Source of the DNA: Nitrospina sp. LS_NOB | GTDB lineage: Bacteria > Nitrospinota > Nitrospinia > Nitrospinales > VA-1 | Direction: 5' to 3' | NCBI GenBank assembly: GCA_001542995.1 | Contig: LFLA01000017.1 | Span: 1 to 32,257 of the forward strand | DNA length: 32,257 nucleotides | Shown: positions 4,501 to 32,257 of the stretch, in pieces | Layout of the letters: each line of letters begins with the position of its first letter | Numbering within the stretch: position 1 is the stretch's first letter | Program-made: the position numbers and the translations under genes | Notes under the pieces: model-generated | What the model was told of the DNA's origin: nothing | Database searches by the model: none | What the model saw: only the letters and a program-made list of their open reading frames with translations

Positions 4501-5278
4501 CTGTCAGGCTGAGGATGCTTCGGGCTGTTTCCCGATAAAGGCTGCTGGCATTTTCCTGAATGTCCAGACCCGCACCCATCCGGGATAGCAAAGGCATTCG
4601 ACGGGTTAAAGAAGAACAAAATGAGTCAATGGTCACAATTCTCAGGCGGGCCGGGTTACTCATCAGCTTCCAGTCCCGTGCTTGATCCTGCTCAAGAACT
4701 TTTCGAGCCAGTTCCCAGGTCTCTCTGGCGTGGGTTTGCTCGGAACGCGGAGAACCTCCGCTAGCAACTTGCGAAGTCTTTTTACTGAGCTCAAACTGTG
4801 TCGACGGCTCAACGAACCCTTGCTCATTGCCTCCACGGCTAGTGGGCGGAGAACCTCCGCTAGCAACTTGCGAAGTCTTTTTACTGAGCTCAAACTGTGT
4901 CGACGGCTCAACGAACCTTTGCTCATTGCCTCCACGGCTAGTGGGCGGAGAACCTCCGCTAGCAACTTGCGAAGTCTTTTTACTGAGCTCAAACTGTGTC
5001 GACGGCTCAACGAACCTTTGCTCATTGCCTCCACGGCTAGTGGGTTGCTGGGTTTGGGCTTCGGTGAGGGCGGAAAAAATTCTTTCCTTCATTTCTGCGG
5101 CGGCTTTTCGGGTAAAAGTCATCGCCAGAATTTCTTCCGGAAAGTTTGCCAGTCCCAATAATTTCAGATAACGTTGGATGAGCAATTCGGTTTTCCCTGA
5201 TCCTGCCGGGGCCTGAACGATAAAAGACTGGTCGGGTTCCAGGGCTTGTCTTCTTATTTCTTCATCGGCCAGTTTCAA
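1583..5278 (-). CDS. addA: AddA-like UvrD/Rep-family helicase-nuclease
   Basis: Helicase subunit of a probable AddAB-type double-strand-break resection enzyme. About 1231 residues from a TTG start at 5278. This start is chosen because GGAGGA lies about seven bases upstream and TTG overlaps the TGA of the upstream nuclease gene; a longer frame to 5344 lacks this support. SF1 helicase motifs are visible: Walker A APAGSGKT (23-30), MTFTRKAAAEM (53-63), DEYQDTS (527-533), VGDPKQSIYRFRD, LESNFRS, MTMHKAKGLEFD and LLYVAATRAKSQ. A C-terminal RecB-like nuclease domain has GNVLHRCLH and DYKTG near 1171. Residues 79-177 are three copies of a 33-residue repeat placed right after the first helicase motifs. 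They appear to be an inserted element, not part of the family fold. Confidence 0.9.
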   Translation of the reverse strand: MKLADEEIRRQALEPDQSFIVQAPAGSGKTELLIQRYLKLLGLANFPEEILAMTFTRKAAAEMKERIFSALTEAQTQQPTSRGGNEQRFVEPSTQFELSKKTSQVASGGSPPTSRGGNEQRFVEPSTQFELSKKTSQVASGGSPPTSRGGNEQGFVEPSTQFELSKKTSQVASGGSPRSEQTHARETWELARKVLEQDQARDWKLMSNPARLRIVTIDSFCSSLTRRMPLLSRMGAGLDIQENASSLYRETARSILSLTESETNPYGVLVRNILRHIDNSKEDFIKRIVQLLDRRDQWMISFFDPRENLKTHPLNENARQELEQTLGGLIQSRLGELEGLFSPEMQKNILRLGNYSGSNIDDPSHPCACLANLPNFPDTMVDSLKIWKGLAHLFLTQTNTCRKKPDVRLGFPADKDAGAKKMKNDFVELVNALQENPALLVALARVKKLPRGHFTNMQWDLLKSTIRLLAEINKRLKDVFSSRQITDFTEISLSAISGLVQKDKDGEEHPTDLLFYLDCKIHHILVDEYQDTSFKQEELLRKLTSEWSDEDGRTLFIVGDPKQSIYRFRDAEVGLFIKTQERGLGTLRLKPLSLESNFRSQKNLVDWINTCFQKIFPEHNDPDLGAISYTPSSAVKEETMHPGVLYHPVPHHDDSHAISEEEAQKITVLVKDLQQQYPTMSQAILVRGRTHLTSIVRHFNKSGVAFKAEAIDSLTDRPAIIDLLSLLRALRFPGDRTAWLSILRAPWCGLSLTDIHALVELDRTTPVWFLLNDPSRIGLLSEDGQKRAQNLVHNMYHFLNGFSDQNFRDGLEACWIRLGGPACLQGTSPDDIEVFFNKVEEIIASGQEEQFENFDQILKDLYASPLAVPDNAVQIMTMHKAKGLEFDFVILPGLGKRIKGDEKRLVYWMPHGDGLLLAPIEEKGGETSPLYEFLSDLNKEKEEYETLRLLYVAATRAKSQLHLFGHLEPSREEKWKPHSKSLLNKLWPHIKEEWLDKLSEATETSPVEPDQLPTETHSIHRLPIDFSFPIAADPIIEGQVVDIEDEKYSEPEYYWAGNTARCLGNVLHRCLHDIAVEGLETWSEERIENLKPNFKSALLGEGLPLEQAEDALDSGLLALSRVFEDARGKWILASHEDAHSEYPLTFFQDNRYIRNVIDRTFVDDGIRWIIDYKTGTHKGGGKNLEIFLDSEVQRYRQQLNRYENVLKKYGEKLPVKKALYFPLLKTWREIN
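4748..5044. repeat. Three tandem 99-bp palindromic elements in frame within addA
   Basis: Three nearly identical 99-bp units start at 4748, 4847 and 4946. Each begins with the hairpin CGGAG-AAC-CTCCG and ends with the hairpin CCAC-GGCTA-GTGG. Read on the minus strand each adds 33 residues (motifs TSRGGNEQ, FVEPSTQFELSKK, SQVASGG) without a stop. A related 98-bp copy with both hairpins conserved is intergenic at 26214-26311, so this is a dispersed element that invaded the gene and multiplied. Confidence 0.85.
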
Positions 5279-8036: not shown

Positions 8037-8165
8037 GAGACCTTTGCATAACCCCGAGATTCTTCGTCACGTTGTTCCTCAGAATGACAAAACAGCCCTT
8101 TATTGTCATGCTGAGCTTGTCGAAGCATCTCGTTTTTCTGCTTTATCGACTTACGCAAAGGTCTC
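8037..8165. mobile_element. MITE-like miniature inverted-repeat element, copy 1
   Basis: A 129-bp non-coding element bounded by GAGACCTTTGCATAA and TTACGCAAAGGTCTC, which are reverse complements except for one base. The interior is an imperfect palindrome in which GAGATTCTTCG and CAGAATGACA on the left face GTCATGCTGAGC and TCGAAGCATCTCG on the right. No target duplication can be seen at its ends. The same ends bound the element at 10045-10209. Confidence 0.75.
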
Positions 8166-9152: not shown

Positions 9153-9416
9153 TTAGGGATGCCCTTTGGCTCCGCCTGAGAACGGGGGAAGAAATGCCAC
9201 CTCGTCTCCATCATGAATGATGGTGTCGGCAGAGGCCATTTCCTGATTGACCGAGATCAAGACTTTTCTCTCCCGGATAATCGCTCCCATTTTCGGTGCT
9301 GTTTCAGAAATGATATCACTCAACTGGTCTATGGTTATTGGATTTTCAATATCCAAACTGTCTTCTTCTTTTCCGGCAATAGATCTCAGGCTGGCAAAAA
9401 ATTTGAGGGAGATCAT
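9153..9416 (-). CDS. moaD: Molybdopterin synthase sulfur carrier MoaD with C-terminal tail
   Basis: Ubiquitin-fold sulfur carrier of molybdopterin synthase, 87 residues. The fold is recognisable ([17 protein letters not shown], then [10 protein letters not shown] and [16 protein letters not shown]). The start ATG overlaps the moaC stop as ATGA, indicating translational coupling. MoaD normally ends at the Gly-Gly that is adenylated and thiocarboxylated. Here five residues (AKGHP) follow the Gly-Gly before the stop. Such a tail should block activation unless it is removed, as happens with some related sulfur carriers that are trimmed by a protease. Identity as MoaD is supported by the neighbours moaC and moaE. 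Confidence 0.88.
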
Positions 9417-9940
9417 TTTTCCACTGTTTCTTTATCGAAGGTTCCTGATTTGCCGCCGGATTTGTGAAGCAACCCGATCTGGTTGAAAACCATTCCGCGG
9501 TCAACGGCTTTGCACATGTCATAAATGGTGAGCACTGTCATGGAAACCGCAGTCAGCGCTTCCATTTCCACCCCGGTCTGCCCTGTTACTTTAACCGTGG
9601 CGGTCACGGTGATGGAACATAACCCTGTTTCCGGATTCGGGTTCGGGTTTATCTGAAAACTGATGTCCACACTGGTTATTAGCAGGGGGTGACACATGGG
9701 AATGACATCATGCGTTCGTTTGGCTCCCATGATACCCGCGACTTGTGCTACTGCCAGCACATCACCTTTCTTTATCTGTCCCTCTTTGATCAGCTGTAAG
9801 GTTGCCGGTTGCATATGCACTTCGCCGGTCGCCACCGCTTTTCGGGAAGTATGGGTTTTATCGGATACATCGACCATGCGAGCACGGCCTTCCTCATTAA
9901 AATGTGTCAATGGATTGTTCGTATTGCCAAGGTCATTCAT
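9413..9940 (-). CDS. moaC: Cyclic pyranopterin monophosphate synthase MoaC
   Basis: Acts with MoaA in the first step of molybdenum cofactor synthesis, forming cyclic pyranopterin monophosphate from the GTP-derived intermediate. 175 residues, slightly longer than usual because of a short N-terminal leader before the conserved ARMVDVSDK. Other signatures are [33 protein letters not shown] (active-site region), [11 protein letters not shown] and [10 protein letters not shown]. It is the first gene of moaCDE; no moaA, moaB or mogA is in the window. The upstream ~100 bases are AT-rich and probably hold the promoter, but I cannot fix a box with confidence. Confidence 0.93.
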
Positions 9941-10044
9941 GCACGGGTTTTCCTGTTATAAATATACGTCAAGGGATTGATTATTCAATAAAGCCAATTG
10001 TACATCATCAATGGCATACGCTCAATGGGATTCCTGTTACTCAG

Positions 10045-10209
10045 GAGACCTTTGCATAAGTCGTGAAAACGGAAAAGCGAGATGCTTCGAGGGCCTCAGC
10101 ATGACGACTGCGGGGGCTTCGGGCTGTCATCCTGAGCTAGTGATATTCGACCTTTGCTTTCTTGCCCCGGAGGGGTATGTCGAAGGATCTCTGGGTATGC
10201 AAAGGTCTC
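10045..10209. mobile_element. MITE-like element with 14-bp TIRs and 9-bp target duplication, copy 2
   Basis: 165 bp, bounded by GAGACCTTTGCATA (10045-10058) and its exact reverse complement TATGCAAAGGTCTC (10196-10209). The 9-bp sequence GTTACTCAG flanks it directly at 10036-10044 and 10210-10218, a target-site duplication. The right copy contains the stop codon of the VOC gene. The interior is an imperfect palindrome with GAGATGCTTCGAGG and CTCAGCATGACGA. Compared with copy 1 it carries an extra ~40-bp module (AGTGATATTCGACCTTTGC, then GCCCCGGAGGGGT) that also appears near 16940. It encodes no transposase, so it would have to be mobilised in trans. Confidence 0.85.
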
Positions 10210-10210
10210 G

Positions 10211-10552
10211 TTACTCAGGAGGTTCATAGAGGCCCAGGATATTTCCGTCGGGGTCCTGAAACCGGGCCAGTTTTCCGTAGGAATGGATTTCTATGTTTCC
10301 ATCCAGTGTGGCATCCAACTCTTTCAATCGGAATACAAAACCTTCAATAGGCCGCGCAAGAAAGTATACCGTGGCGCCAACTCCGGCCGGGCAGTCGGAT
10401 TTCTGCAAAGCCAGTCTTTGTCCATCCAGGTCAAACTCCGCCCAGTCTTTCCGATGAAACAGGGGTTCTTTTCCCAGTACCTTCTGGTAGAATTTCACCG
10501 CCCTGTCTAAATCTGATACCGGGTAGGATATAAATGCGATTTTTGTCTGCAT
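10211..10552 (-). CDS. VOC-family (glyoxalase/dioxygenase-fold) protein
   Basis: Small protein of the vicinal-oxygen-chelate fold, 113 residues from the ATG at 10552. That start places the conserved first strand (KIAFISYPVSDLDRAVKFYQ) at the N-terminus; an upstream TTG at 10606 would overlap the divergent transporter. Typical segments include FYQKVLGKEPLF, EFDLDGQRLAL, ATVYFLA and the C-terminal FQDPDGNILGLYEP. These proteins often bind a metal and act in detoxification, resistance or isomerisation, but the substrate cannot be told. Insertion of the miniature element at 10045 duplicated its stop codon region without changing the protein. Confidence 0.8.
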   Translation of the reverse strand: MQTKIAFISYPVSDLDRAVKFYQKVLGKEPLFHRKDWAEFDLDGQRLALQKSDCPAGVGATVYFLARPIEGFVFRLKELDATLDGNIEIHSYGKLARFQDPDGNILGLYEPPE

Positions 10553-10599
10553 GTCGGGAATCCCGCTTTTCATAAATGAAACGATTCGGAGCTTAACAC

Positions 10600-11502
10600 T
10601 TGTCACTGTTTAATATTGGACTGGTTCTAATATCCAGTCTTTTACATTCTGTCTGGAATATATTGACCCAGACCAGTAAAAATTCCCAGTACTTTTCTGG
10701 TTTAAAAGGGGCTTGCATCATAGTCATGGCTGGGATTGCCTACGCCATGTTCGGAATGGCCCCATTGAACAATGAGATTTGGATCTGGGGCATCCTTTCA
10801 GGAGTTTTGCATGGGGTGTATATACTTTGCCTTTCCCGGGCCTACTCGACGGCGGATATTTCCTATGTCTATCCTATCGCTCGGTCGGCACCGGTATTCG
10901 TCCCGGTCTTTGCCTGGTTGTTGCTCAATGAGCGGCTGAGTATTTCCACCTTTCTTGCTATTGGGTTTATCCTGACAGCCATTTATATTCTGCATTTTGA
11001 AGGCCACCTGATACGAGGATTCAAAAACCTGGCGCAGGCTCTTCGTCACCATGATTTACGTTGGGCCTTTTATACTCTGGCGATGGTGGTCAGCTACAGT
11101 CTGGTGGACAAAAAGGGAATGGATTCCTTTTTGAGTCATTTGCCGGACCAGCCTTTCGCCAATGGCATTACCTTTTTTTTCATTGAGGCGACCATAGGCT
11201 TTGCTCTCTGTAATGTCTATATTTTTTCCAGGCACCCGGCAAAATATATTTTGCGATCTTGGAGAGGGGAATGGCAAAAAGCCTTGCTTGCCGGGATTGC
11301 CACTCTAGGTTCTTATGGACTGATCTGTGTGGTGCTTCAGTTCGAAGCCTTGAGCGCGGTTGTCTCCCTTCGACAGGTCAGCGTATTGATGGTGGTCTAT
11401 TGGGGATGTTGGAAACTTAGCGAGCCGTTTGGCCGACAACGCCTCTTGGCGGGAGGACTGACTGTGATCGGCATATTCCTGATTAGCAGCAACAACAACT
11501 GA
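10600..11502 (+). CDS. EamA/DMT-family transporter
   Basis: Inner-membrane permease of the drug/metabolite transporter superfamily, 300 residues with about ten hydrophobic segments in two homologous halves. The family-like segment SRAYSTADISYVYPIARSAP, then VPVFAWLLLNERLS, closes the first EamA repeat. The second ends near the C-terminus with LLAGGLTVIGIFLIS. The TTG start is supported by GGAG at 10588-10591, eight bases upstream. It is divergent from the VOC gene. Substrate is unknown; members export metabolites, amino acids or nucleotides. Confidence 0.85.
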   Translation: MSLFNIGLVLISSLLHSVWNILTQTSKNSQYFSGLKGACIIVMAGIAYAMFGMAPLNNEIWIWGILSGVLHGVYILCLSRAYSTADISYVYPIARSAPVFVPVFAWLLLNERLSISTFLAIGFILTAIYILHFEGHLIRGFKNLAQALRHHDLRWAFYTLAMVVSYSLVDKKGMDSFLSHLPDQPFANGITFFFIEATIGFALCNVYIFSRHPAKYILRSWRGEWQKALLAGIATLGSYGLICVVLQFEALSAVVSLRQVSVLMVVYWGCWKLSEPFGRQRLLAGGLTVIGIFLISSNNN

Positions 11503-16070: not shown

Positions 16071-16517
16071 ATGAAAATATGGGTGGATGCAGACGCTTGC
16101 CCCAAACCGATCAAAGATATTTTGTGTCGTGCTGCGGACAGGACAGAAATAATGGTGACCTTCGTTGCGAATCAGAGGTTTCGCGTGCCGGAATCCTCTT
16201 TTATCCATTTGACCCAGGTGGGGTATGGGGCGGATATCGCCGATGATGAGATTGTGAATGAATGCGAAGCTGGGGACTTGATCATCACGGCGGACATTCC
16301 GCTCGCGGCCCGCGTTGTCGAGAAGGGAGCGCTGGCCCTCGATCCGCGAGGTAAAATGTACGATAAAGATAATATAGGGCAGATACTGGATATGCGTAAC
16401 TTCATGGACGAGCTACGCGGTAGCGGTGTCGAAACAGGTGGCCCAAGTGGATTCAGTCAGAAAGAACGCTACAAGTTTGCCAATGAGTTAGATAGGCTTA
16501 TAGCGCAAGAAGGATAG
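16071..16517 (+). CDS. yaiI: YaiI/YqxD-family (DUF188) protein
   Basis: 148-residue protein of the UPF0178 family, recognised by the N-terminal WVDADACPKPIKDIL, the central DIADDEIVNECEAGDLIITADIPLA, and the DPRGKMYDKDNIG and NFMDELR segments. The family has a PIN-like acidic core (Asp in DADA, DD in ADD, D in TADIPLA), suggesting a nucleic-acid role, but no biochemical function is established. It follows the kinase gene by 80 bases containing a GC-rich segment that shares GCGACCGCC with the hairpin region near 16870. Confidence 0.92.
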   Translation: MKIWVDADACPKPIKDILCRAADRTEIMVTFVANQRFRVPESSFIHLTQVGYGADIADDEIVNECEAGDLIITADIPLAARVVEKGALALDPRGKMYDKDNIGQILDMRNFMDELRGSGVETGGPSGFSQKERYKFANELDRLIAQEG

Positions 16518-16574
16518 GGGGACTGCATTGATCGTAAAGAAAGCTGGGGGACTGCATTGATCGTAAAGAAAGCT
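16517..16574 (+). repeat. Perfect 29-bp tandem duplication over a ribosome site and start codon
   Basis: Two exact 29-bp copies (16517-16545 and 16546-16574) each carry GGGGG, then CTGCATTGATCG and TAAAGAAAGCT. Each therefore contains a Shine-Dalgarno-like G run and a TTG start. Because 29 is not a multiple of three, the first TTG (16528) opens a ten-codon frame that stops inside the second copy, while the second TTG (16557) opens the 91-residue gene. The first copy also overlaps the yaiI stop codon region. Confidence 0.9.
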
Positions 16575-30632: not shown

Positions 30633-32257
30633 TGCAGGAAGTGTTGGTTTTTGGACAATTAGGTAAAGCAGTCTTTCAAAAAAATGAGGATTTTTTCCTT
30701 CTTGATTTGGAACGGCCTGATGTGGAAACAATCCGGCAGGGTGACATATCTTTTTTGCTTGATTCAGGGGCTGAAAATAGGACCAAAGCCTATCCCAAAT
30801 GGGATGTTGAGGTCTTAAGAAAAGACCTTGAGGAAATAGGAAAAGGACATGACGCTCTAGAAATGGTTTTTGATTGTTTCGATCCTGAGTTTGACGAGGA
30901 AACTCTTCTTTCCTGCGCAGAGGCAGCTGAAGAGTTATTGACTGACGAAGAAGTAGTTGGTTTTGTGACGAAACGAATGTTTTCTCGTCCTTTACCCAAT
31001 AAGGCAAGCCGTTCTTTCCCTGAAAAGATCATTAGGGAAAAGAAACTTCCAAATCTAGGAGGCTTTCTTTCTTTGGTTTTTGGTCATCAAGAGGCCATTG
31101 ATTCGATTTGGATTGCCTGGGAAACAGTTGCAAATCAAAATTTTACCGACATTCATTTGGCTTATAAAACGCAAAATGCTTTTATTGAAGTGGGTGTATT
31201 CGCGCTTGCCGTTCGAGCGTTATATTCTATGGATCAAAGCAAGTTGGGGTTGTTGCCAATAGAATATTTTGAAAACTCACACTTGGAATTTGTTCCCAAT
31301 CTGCAAACAATTTTAACAGAATTACATGCTGAGATTAAAAAACATCTTCCAAGAGAGAAACCTCTGGAGTTTGTCTCCGATAGTAATTTGCTTGACCCTG
31401 TTTTATCAGAAAGTTCCAGAAAGCCTAAAAAGGGGAGAAAAATTGTTCATTTTGATTCAGCTAGAATTTCAGACCTGAAGAGCAGAGTTATTCAATCCTA
31501 TTTCCAAGGAAAAATAAGTGTAGCAGAGAAACTTCAAAGAGAACTTTGCGATTATCAAGTGGACAGTCCTAAATACTTATGTATGAGCCTTTGTGATATT
31601 GCAAACCAAATTGGCAAGAAGGTTGGTTTGTCGGAAATAGCTATTGAGATTTATGAGCTAGCGGTAAGGAAAAATAAAACTGATCTAGTTCCCTGGACAG
31701 GCATGGCGGAGGTGTACAAGGCCATGCGGCAGTATGATATGGCTTTGGAAAAGTATGGGAAGGCTCAGGAGCTTGATCCCGCAAATGTGATTACGTGGAA
31801 TGGTATGGCAGAGGTGTTCAAATCCATGCGGCAGTATGATACGGCGTTGGAAAAGTATGGGAAGGCTCAGGAGCTTGATCCCGCAAATGTGATTACGTGG
31901 AATGGAATGGCAGAGGTGTTCAAGGCCATGCGGCAGTATGATATGGCTTTGGAAAAGTATGAGAAGGCTCAGGAGCTTGATCCATCCGATGTGATTACGT
32001 GGAATGGTATGGCGGAGGTGTACAAGGCCATGCGGCAGTATGATATGGCTTTGGAAAAGTATGAGAAGGCTCAGGAGCTTGATCCCGCAAATGTGATTAC
32101 GTGGAATGGTATGGCAGAGGTGTTCAAATCCATGCGGCAGTATGATACGGCGTTGGAAAAGTATGAAAAGGCTCAGGAGCTTGATCCCGCAAATGTGATT
32201 GCGTGGAGTGGCATGGCGGAGGTGTATAAGGCCATGCGGCAGTATGATATGGCTTTG
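30632..32257 (+). CDS. TPR-repeat protein with unknown N-terminal region, 3' end outside window
   Basis: Open for 542 codons to the window edge. The start ATG shares one base with the preceding stop. The first ~350 residues (QEVLVFGQLGKAVF, then an acidic helical region with DCFDPEFDEETLLSCAEAAE) match no family I know. A lysine-rich linker (SSRKPKKGRK) precedes the second half. From about residue 355 there are at least six 34-residue tetratricopeptide repeats, consensus MAEVYKAMRQYDMALEKYGK plus AQELDPANVITWNG. TPRs act as protein-binding scaffolds. Coupling to the zinc-ribbon gene suggests the two products work together. No signal peptide is seen, so a cytoplasmic location is likely. Confidence 0.85.
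   Translation, partial: MQEVLVFGQLGKAVFQKNEDFFLLDLERPDVETIRQGDISFLLDSGAENRTKAYPKWDVEVLRKDLEEIGKGHDALEMVFDCFDPEFDEETLLSCAEAAEELLTDEEVVGFVTKRMFSRPLPNKASRSFPEKIIREKKLPNLGGFLSLVFGHQEAIDSIWIAWETVANQNFTDIHLAYKTQNAFIEVGVFALAVRALYSMDQSKLGLLPIEYFENSHLEFVPNLQTILTELHAEIKKHLPREKPLEFVSDSNLLDPVLSESSRKPKKGRKIVHFDSARISDLKSRVIQSYFQGKISVAEKLQRELCDYQVDSPKYLCMSLCDIANQIGKKVGLSEIAIEIYELAVRKNKTDLVPWTGMAEVYKAMRQYDMALEKYGKAQELDPANVITWNGMAEVFKSMRQYDTALEKYGKAQELDPANVITWNGMAEVFKAMRQYDMALEKYEKAQELDPSDVITWNGMAEVYKAMRQYDMALEKYEKAQELDPANVITWNGMAEVFKSMRQYDTALEKYEKAQELDPANVIAWSGMAEVYKAMRQYDMAL
31694..32257 (+). repeat. Near-identical 102-bp TPR-coding repeats
   Basis: Six units with the MAEV methionine codon at 31703, 31805, 31907, 32009, 32111 and 32213, exactly 102 bp apart; the sixth is cut by the window end. 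Variant pairs (YKAM/DMAL, then FKSM/DTAL) recur in units 1-2 and 4-5, indicating that a three-unit, 306-bp block was duplicated recently. Confidence 0.92.

Follow-up and report, generated by a model that had tools for sequence, protein, structure and literature searches.

The 165-bp element between a VOC gene and moaC in Nitrospina sp. LS_NOB is, judging from its ends, a MITE of a known kind: they match those of ISNme1 and of the Porphyromonas gingivalis MITE BrickBuilt. It was very probably moved in trans by an IS5-family transposase of the transpos_IS5_4 type. Ends, target duplication, dispersal, element-free sites, autonomous IS5-family relatives and a transposase relic were all observed. 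The window that was analyzed is the whole of contig C12 (32,257 nt).

The perfect 14-bp terminal inverted repeats (TIRs) and the 9-bp duplication on either side, both claimed in the initial annotation, were confirmed at the positions given in Table 1. The length of 165 bp was also correct, but it includes both TIRs and is not the size of the non-coding bases between them. In keeping with a MITE, the element contains no transposase ORF. The VOC stop codon TAA, read as TTA on the + strand at 10211–10213, lies in the VOC-side copy of the duplication, and the insertion point is 1 bp beyond it. The duplicated target thus does contain the stop codon, but the earlier wording that the insertion struck the codon and the duplication restored it was loose, because with the stop inside the VOC-side copy the gene was never interrupted. 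Since the VOC reading frame and the promoter-like sequence on the moaC side are both intact, the junction copy probably has little effect on its neighbors. Its hairpin could act as an insulator between VOC and moaC.

Table 1. Features at and near the VOC–moaC junction (positions in the window)
Feature	Position	Strand	Remark
VOC/glyoxalase-fold gene, coding part	10214..10552	-	PF00903; longest ORF 10211-10606 with stop
moaC	9413..9940	-	PF01967; other side of the element
Promoter-like TTGAGC-17-TACAAT, between element and moaC	9997..10025	-	intact; largely conserved in congeners
MITE copy	10045..10209	.	165 bp, ends included
Left TIR GAGACCTTTGCATA	10045..10058	+	same ends on IS5-family IS
Right TIR TATGCAAAGGTCTC	10196..10209	-	exact complement of left TIR
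Target site duplication GTTACTCAG, moaC-side copy	10036..10044	.	empty site in congeners
Target site duplication GTTACTCAG, VOC-side copy	10210..10218	.	holds VOC stop codon
Left arm of internal hairpin CGAGATGCTTCGAGGGCCTCAGCATGAC	10078..10105	+	
Right arm of internal hairpin TGTCATCCTGAGC...GTCGAAGGATCTC	10125..10191	+	split by nested module
Nested ~40-bp module TAGTGATATT...GCCCCGGAGGGGTAT	10138..10178	+	dispersed repeat in its own right
Second family copy, 129 bp	8037..8165	.	between addB and moaE; no duplication left

Full-length IS with the MITE ends, which the initial annotation had suggested looking for, were found in relatives. Thirty PF01609 loci fetched from related genomes were searched; most lacked the ends, and three (L093, L094 and L095) were IS bordered by GAGA[C/G]CTTTG. 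The IS of L093, from a genome of the same family (G022), is 1154 bp long with an exact 9-bp duplication, CTTCGTAAG. That of L094, from the same order (G041) and also recovered as L243 (Nitrospinaceae OFTM44), is 1212 bp long with the exact 9-bp duplication GTTCTAAAA, and that of L095 is an intact 1165-bp copy in a congener (G002) with no duplication. The transposases of L093 and L094 are 73 and 72% identical, respectively, to that of L095, which contains DUF772 and DDE_Tnp_1 domains. Against NF033581 (NCBIfam transpos_IS5_4; cut-off, 140 bits), the L095 and L094 transposases scored 263 and 253 bits. The MITE therefore has its ends in common with full-length IS5-family IS, and its 9-bp duplication in common with L093 and L094, a length that is not strict in the group, where 4–8 bp also occur. 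The earlier proposal of a family making 9-bp staggered cuts is accordingly narrowed to IS5 and relieved of its fixed length.

A PF01609 profile search of the LS_NOB genome for a living helper gave no match. An active helper in the same genome is usual for IS5-family MITEs, if not strictly defining; here just a truncated relic was found, 76 aa long (C23:20780–21007) and 67% identical to the L095 transposase, in a locus (C23:20780–21333) that two tandem MITE copies interrupt. Seemingly, the mover was an IS5-family transposase that once resided in this lineage and is now extinct in it, although a helper could be hidden in a gap of the assembly (2.65 Mb, 26-contig draft, 98.8% complete).

A mover from another family or subgroup, such as the IS903/ISAba12-type IS5 subgroup, IS4 or IS1, was also considered, since 9-bp duplications are left by several IS families. 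ISAba12-type ends, GGCTTTGTTGCACAAA, moreover resemble part of the present ends (PMC6382973). However, the outer ends differ (GGCTTTG versus GAGACCTTTGC), and the transpos_IS5_4 elements of relatives have the same outer end and duplication length as the MITE, which makes a mover outside the ISNme1/ISAba23-like group very unlikely. On the preferred reading, an IS5-family DDE transposase (transpos_IS5_4, with ISNme1/ISAba23-like ends) acting in trans would have recognized the GAGACCTTTGC ends, mobilized the element by excision or copying, and inserted it at a staggered cut, CCT-GTTACTCAG-GAG, just past the VOC stop. Repair would then have produced the 9-bp duplication, and the helper IS would afterwards have been lost from this lineage.

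The MITE is dispersed in many copies over this genome. Its 15-mer end, GAGASCTTTGCRTAA, gave 142 genome matches compared with 0 for the control, and the 12-mer end gave 120 at up to one mismatch compared with 15 for the reversed control. BLAST of the element against the genome returned 58 matches, and the family comprises about 70 copies. The second copy in the window, absent from the list of the initial annotation, is 99% identical to another copy in the same genome. A further end pair, C7:1449–2474 (1026 bp), was taken up as an IS candidate and dropped, as it encodes no transposase. The window also holds repeats of other kinds. Three near-identical 99-bp units (4747–5044) lie in frame within an AddA-like helicase gene and add a 33-residue repeat near the N terminus of its product. 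A tandem array of ~54-bp units (97–782) encodes a repetitive protein with more than one frame open, 102-bp tandem units (31703–32257) run past the contig end and encode a repeat protein that looks TPR-like, and a perfect 29-bp tandem duplication occupies 16517–16574.

Simple copies of the MITE are mostly 127–131 bp long and consist of a TIR, a short spacer, an arm, a loop, the other arm and a TIR. Their first arm reads GAGAT[G/T]CTTC...CAGAATGACA or CAGCATGACA, and their second TGTCAT[T/C]CT...GAAG[A/G]ATC. The junction copy reaches 165 bp because the ~40-bp module interrupts its right arm; in other copies the module sits at other positions, and L012 and L013 are near-identical except for 39 bp. 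A part of the module, GTGCCCCGCAGGGGTA, has 157 genome sites at up to two mismatches (control, 0), and the hairpin motif TTGTCATYCTSRRG has 127 (control, 0), many of them away from MITE ends. Because module and hairpin motif also occur apart, three repeat families can be told apart: core, module and ends. Within the window, the module (GTGATATT...GTGCCCCGCAGGGGTA), which occurs alone as well as at differing positions in the MITE, is present at 10138–10178 and 1525–1540, and the hairpin repeat TTGTCATYCT[CG][AG][AG]G, which occurs within the MITE and elsewhere, at 1086–1324. MITE and IS resemble each other in their ends alone, so the MITE need not be descended from this IS. Since the core hairpin repeat also occurs without these ends, it may be a sequence that became enclosed by IS ends, and not the remnant of an IS after simple internal deletion. 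Plasmids of Hymenobacter, a member of a different phylum, match short parts of the core at up to 100%; the consensus matched nothing else among plasmids, the element matched no phage record, and a literature search for the core hairpin sequence returned nothing but unrelated papers.

Element-free alleles, the second check suggested earlier, were found in congeners. At least eight of them (L072–L076, L080, L081 and L083), with VOC genes 78–95% identical, have the VOC–moaC junction without the element. The sequence is conserved up to the VOC stop and again onward from GGAAATCCCATTGAGCG, and the flanks of the LS_NOB element joined without it read GAACCTCCTGAGTAACAGGAATCCCATTGAGCG. As the spacer differs between species, these junctions demonstrate absence of the element and not a base-perfect empty target.

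Duplications were surveyed in 113 elements with paired ends from the fetched Nitrospinota loci of this and related genomes, the three full-length IS included. Direct repeats of 9 bp flanked 43 of the 113 (24 exact and 19 with one mismatch); the other lengths were 10 bp (one element), 8 bp (four), 7 bp (one), 6 bp (seven), 5 bp (three) and 4 bp (one). The 53 elements with no flanking repeat, which weigh against the preferred reading, are explained by decay, recombination or mis-pairing. Random re-pairing of flanks predicted ~1.7 repeats of any length and fewer than one of 9 bp (0.23 exact, 0.54 with one mismatch), so a chance flanking match, which the initial annotation had named as grounds for rejecting its claim, was ruled out. 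Together with the full-length IS and the element-free alleles, these results support its view of a transposase-moved MITE that leaves 9-bp duplications.

The element might instead be a REP/REPIN-like structural repeat mobilized by a RAYT/Y1 enzyme, or a regulatory RNA hairpin. It does fold well (z = -3.3 as DNA for the 165-bp copy; z = -5.0 as RNA for the 129-bp copy), and it is high-copy and intergenic. Against this, target duplications and empty sites are both present, the TIRs are identical to those of IS5-family IS, and a search of the element against Rfam gave no match. REPINs, to our knowledge, leave no 9-bp duplications and carry no TIRs identical to IS5-family IS. Such an origin is therefore highly improbable. 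A chance repeat or tandem duplication at an ancestral locus, for which no favorable point was found, is refuted by the element-free congener junctions and the re-pairing control and deserves practically no credence.

The 43 sites with 9-bp duplications, unsymmetrized, gave a symmetrical pattern, CYY-CTTNNNAAG-RRG (hyphens mark the duplication edges). On the left, C was at -3 in 33 sites, and pyrimidines occupied -2 in 40 and -1 in 39; within the duplication, T was at position 3 in 33 and A at position 7 in 32; on the right, a purine was at +1 in 36 and G at +3 in 30. A perfect stem of at least 6 bp occurred in 35% of 60 target sites compared with 2.7% of 4000 random positions, and the target of the window element itself, TCCTG-TTACT-CAGGA, has a 5-bp stem. 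In single-strand folding energy, the reconstructed 9-bp sites were not separated from background (p = 0.14).

Duplications of 4–8 bp make up about a quarter of the duplication-bearing MITE copies. Most copies with 5–6-bp repeats lie in CCC...GGG hairpins, the repeat being the interval from CCC to GGG, as in L026 and L143 (CCCTCCC-TTCATA-GGGAGGG). Unoccupied CTCCCTTCATAGGGAG, in either orientation, is present at nine places elsewhere in the genome among the matches listed, which indicates a genuine 6-bp duplication; in L014 this palindrome carries a 9-bp duplication. The edge motif CYY-DR-RRG was present on both sides in 8 of 10 MITE sites with 5–6 bp and in 16 of 41 with 9 bp, compared with 0.55% of random positions. 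The short-repeat copies could not all be treated as independent, as L026, L143 and L144 share one target palindrome and L034 and L052 have common flanking repeats; perhaps five independent events are represented among those of Nitrospinota.

Related IS gave a similar picture. Among 41 full copies of helper-related IS, mostly from Bradyrhizobium DOA9 and CCBAU 51765, repeats were of 6 bp in 24, 8 bp in two, 4 bp in one and 9 bp in one, and 13 had none. Most were inserted in CCTCTCCC-GC(AA/TT)GC-GGGAGAGG. In both Bradyrhizobium genomes, almost all full copies lie in the loop of one 22-bp palindrome, CCTCTCCCGCNNGCGGGAGAGG (L244–L271, L276, L281, L282, L298, L300 and L301), and CCBAU 51765 also has the unoccupied 22-mer (L338, near 4522). 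Since filled sites carry 28 bp of the 22-mer, 6 bp were duplicated. Of 29 IS sites with a duplication, 27 had the edge motif on either side. The two loops are unlike in 9 of the 29 sites from Bradyrhizobium, one being AA and the other TT, perhaps through loop inversion.

These patterns suggest a tentative rule, which we regard as possible though somewhat doubtful, that duplication length is variable in this IS5 subgroup. The transposase would recognize two half-sites, CYY and RRG, ideally CCC and GGG and in most cases the arms of a hairpin, cut at their inner edges and duplicate the interval (4, 5, 6, 8 or 9 bp); its substrate may be an extruded cruciform. CCC/GGG edges are, however, partly expected once hairpins are preferred, and some cases may reflect local change after a fixed 9-bp cut. 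Elements with these ends have been published with discordant lengths (5, 4 and 2 bp, with 9 bp here); a length tied to CCC/GGG spacing, if true, would explain the inconsistency with one enzyme. Bradyrhizobium is suited to a test, as most of its sites are one 22-bp palindrome in filled and unfilled copies.

The MITE itself is ordinary, and it adds to those described a high-copy Nitrospinota family for which both a helper and a fossil of that helper are identified. BrickBuilt, with ends GAGACCTTTGCA and TGCAAAGGTCTC and no transposase, resembles it in its equal ends, attribution to IS5 by ends, empty sites and internal repeats, but has an unrelated core (a 23-nt minisatellite), belongs to a different phylum and numbers 18–19 copies; its duplications are of 2, 4 and 5 bp, a variation tentatively put down to several transposases (PMC4596501). 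As far as that account describes them, ISNme1 of Neisseria meningitidis is an IS5-family element with ends GAGACCTTTGCAAAA, ATR is a MITE attributed to it by common ends, and the likeness of both to the present MITE lies in the ends alone (PMC4596501). ISAba23, an IS5-family IS of Acinetobacter, has similar ends, G-A-[AG]-ACCTTTGCACG, and a transposase whose alignment covers 99% of the helper at about 38% identity. It differs from the MITE in being a full-length IS, and its published insertion has a 5-bp duplication (PMC4110982). The 113-bp MITEAba12 and ISAba12 also show 9-bp duplications, a helper proposed from common ends only and a core unrelated to the IS, but their ends are GGCTTTGTTGCACAAA and their targets AT-rich without a motif (PMC6382973). 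REP-targeting IS (ISPsy8, ISRm22, ISNm1106 and others), among them an IS5 member in Neisseria, likewise enter dispersed palindromes, some at the symmetry axis (PMC1525189). ISPsy8 has one duplication length, 3 bp (PMC1525189), whereas here the CCC–GGG interval seems to set the length.
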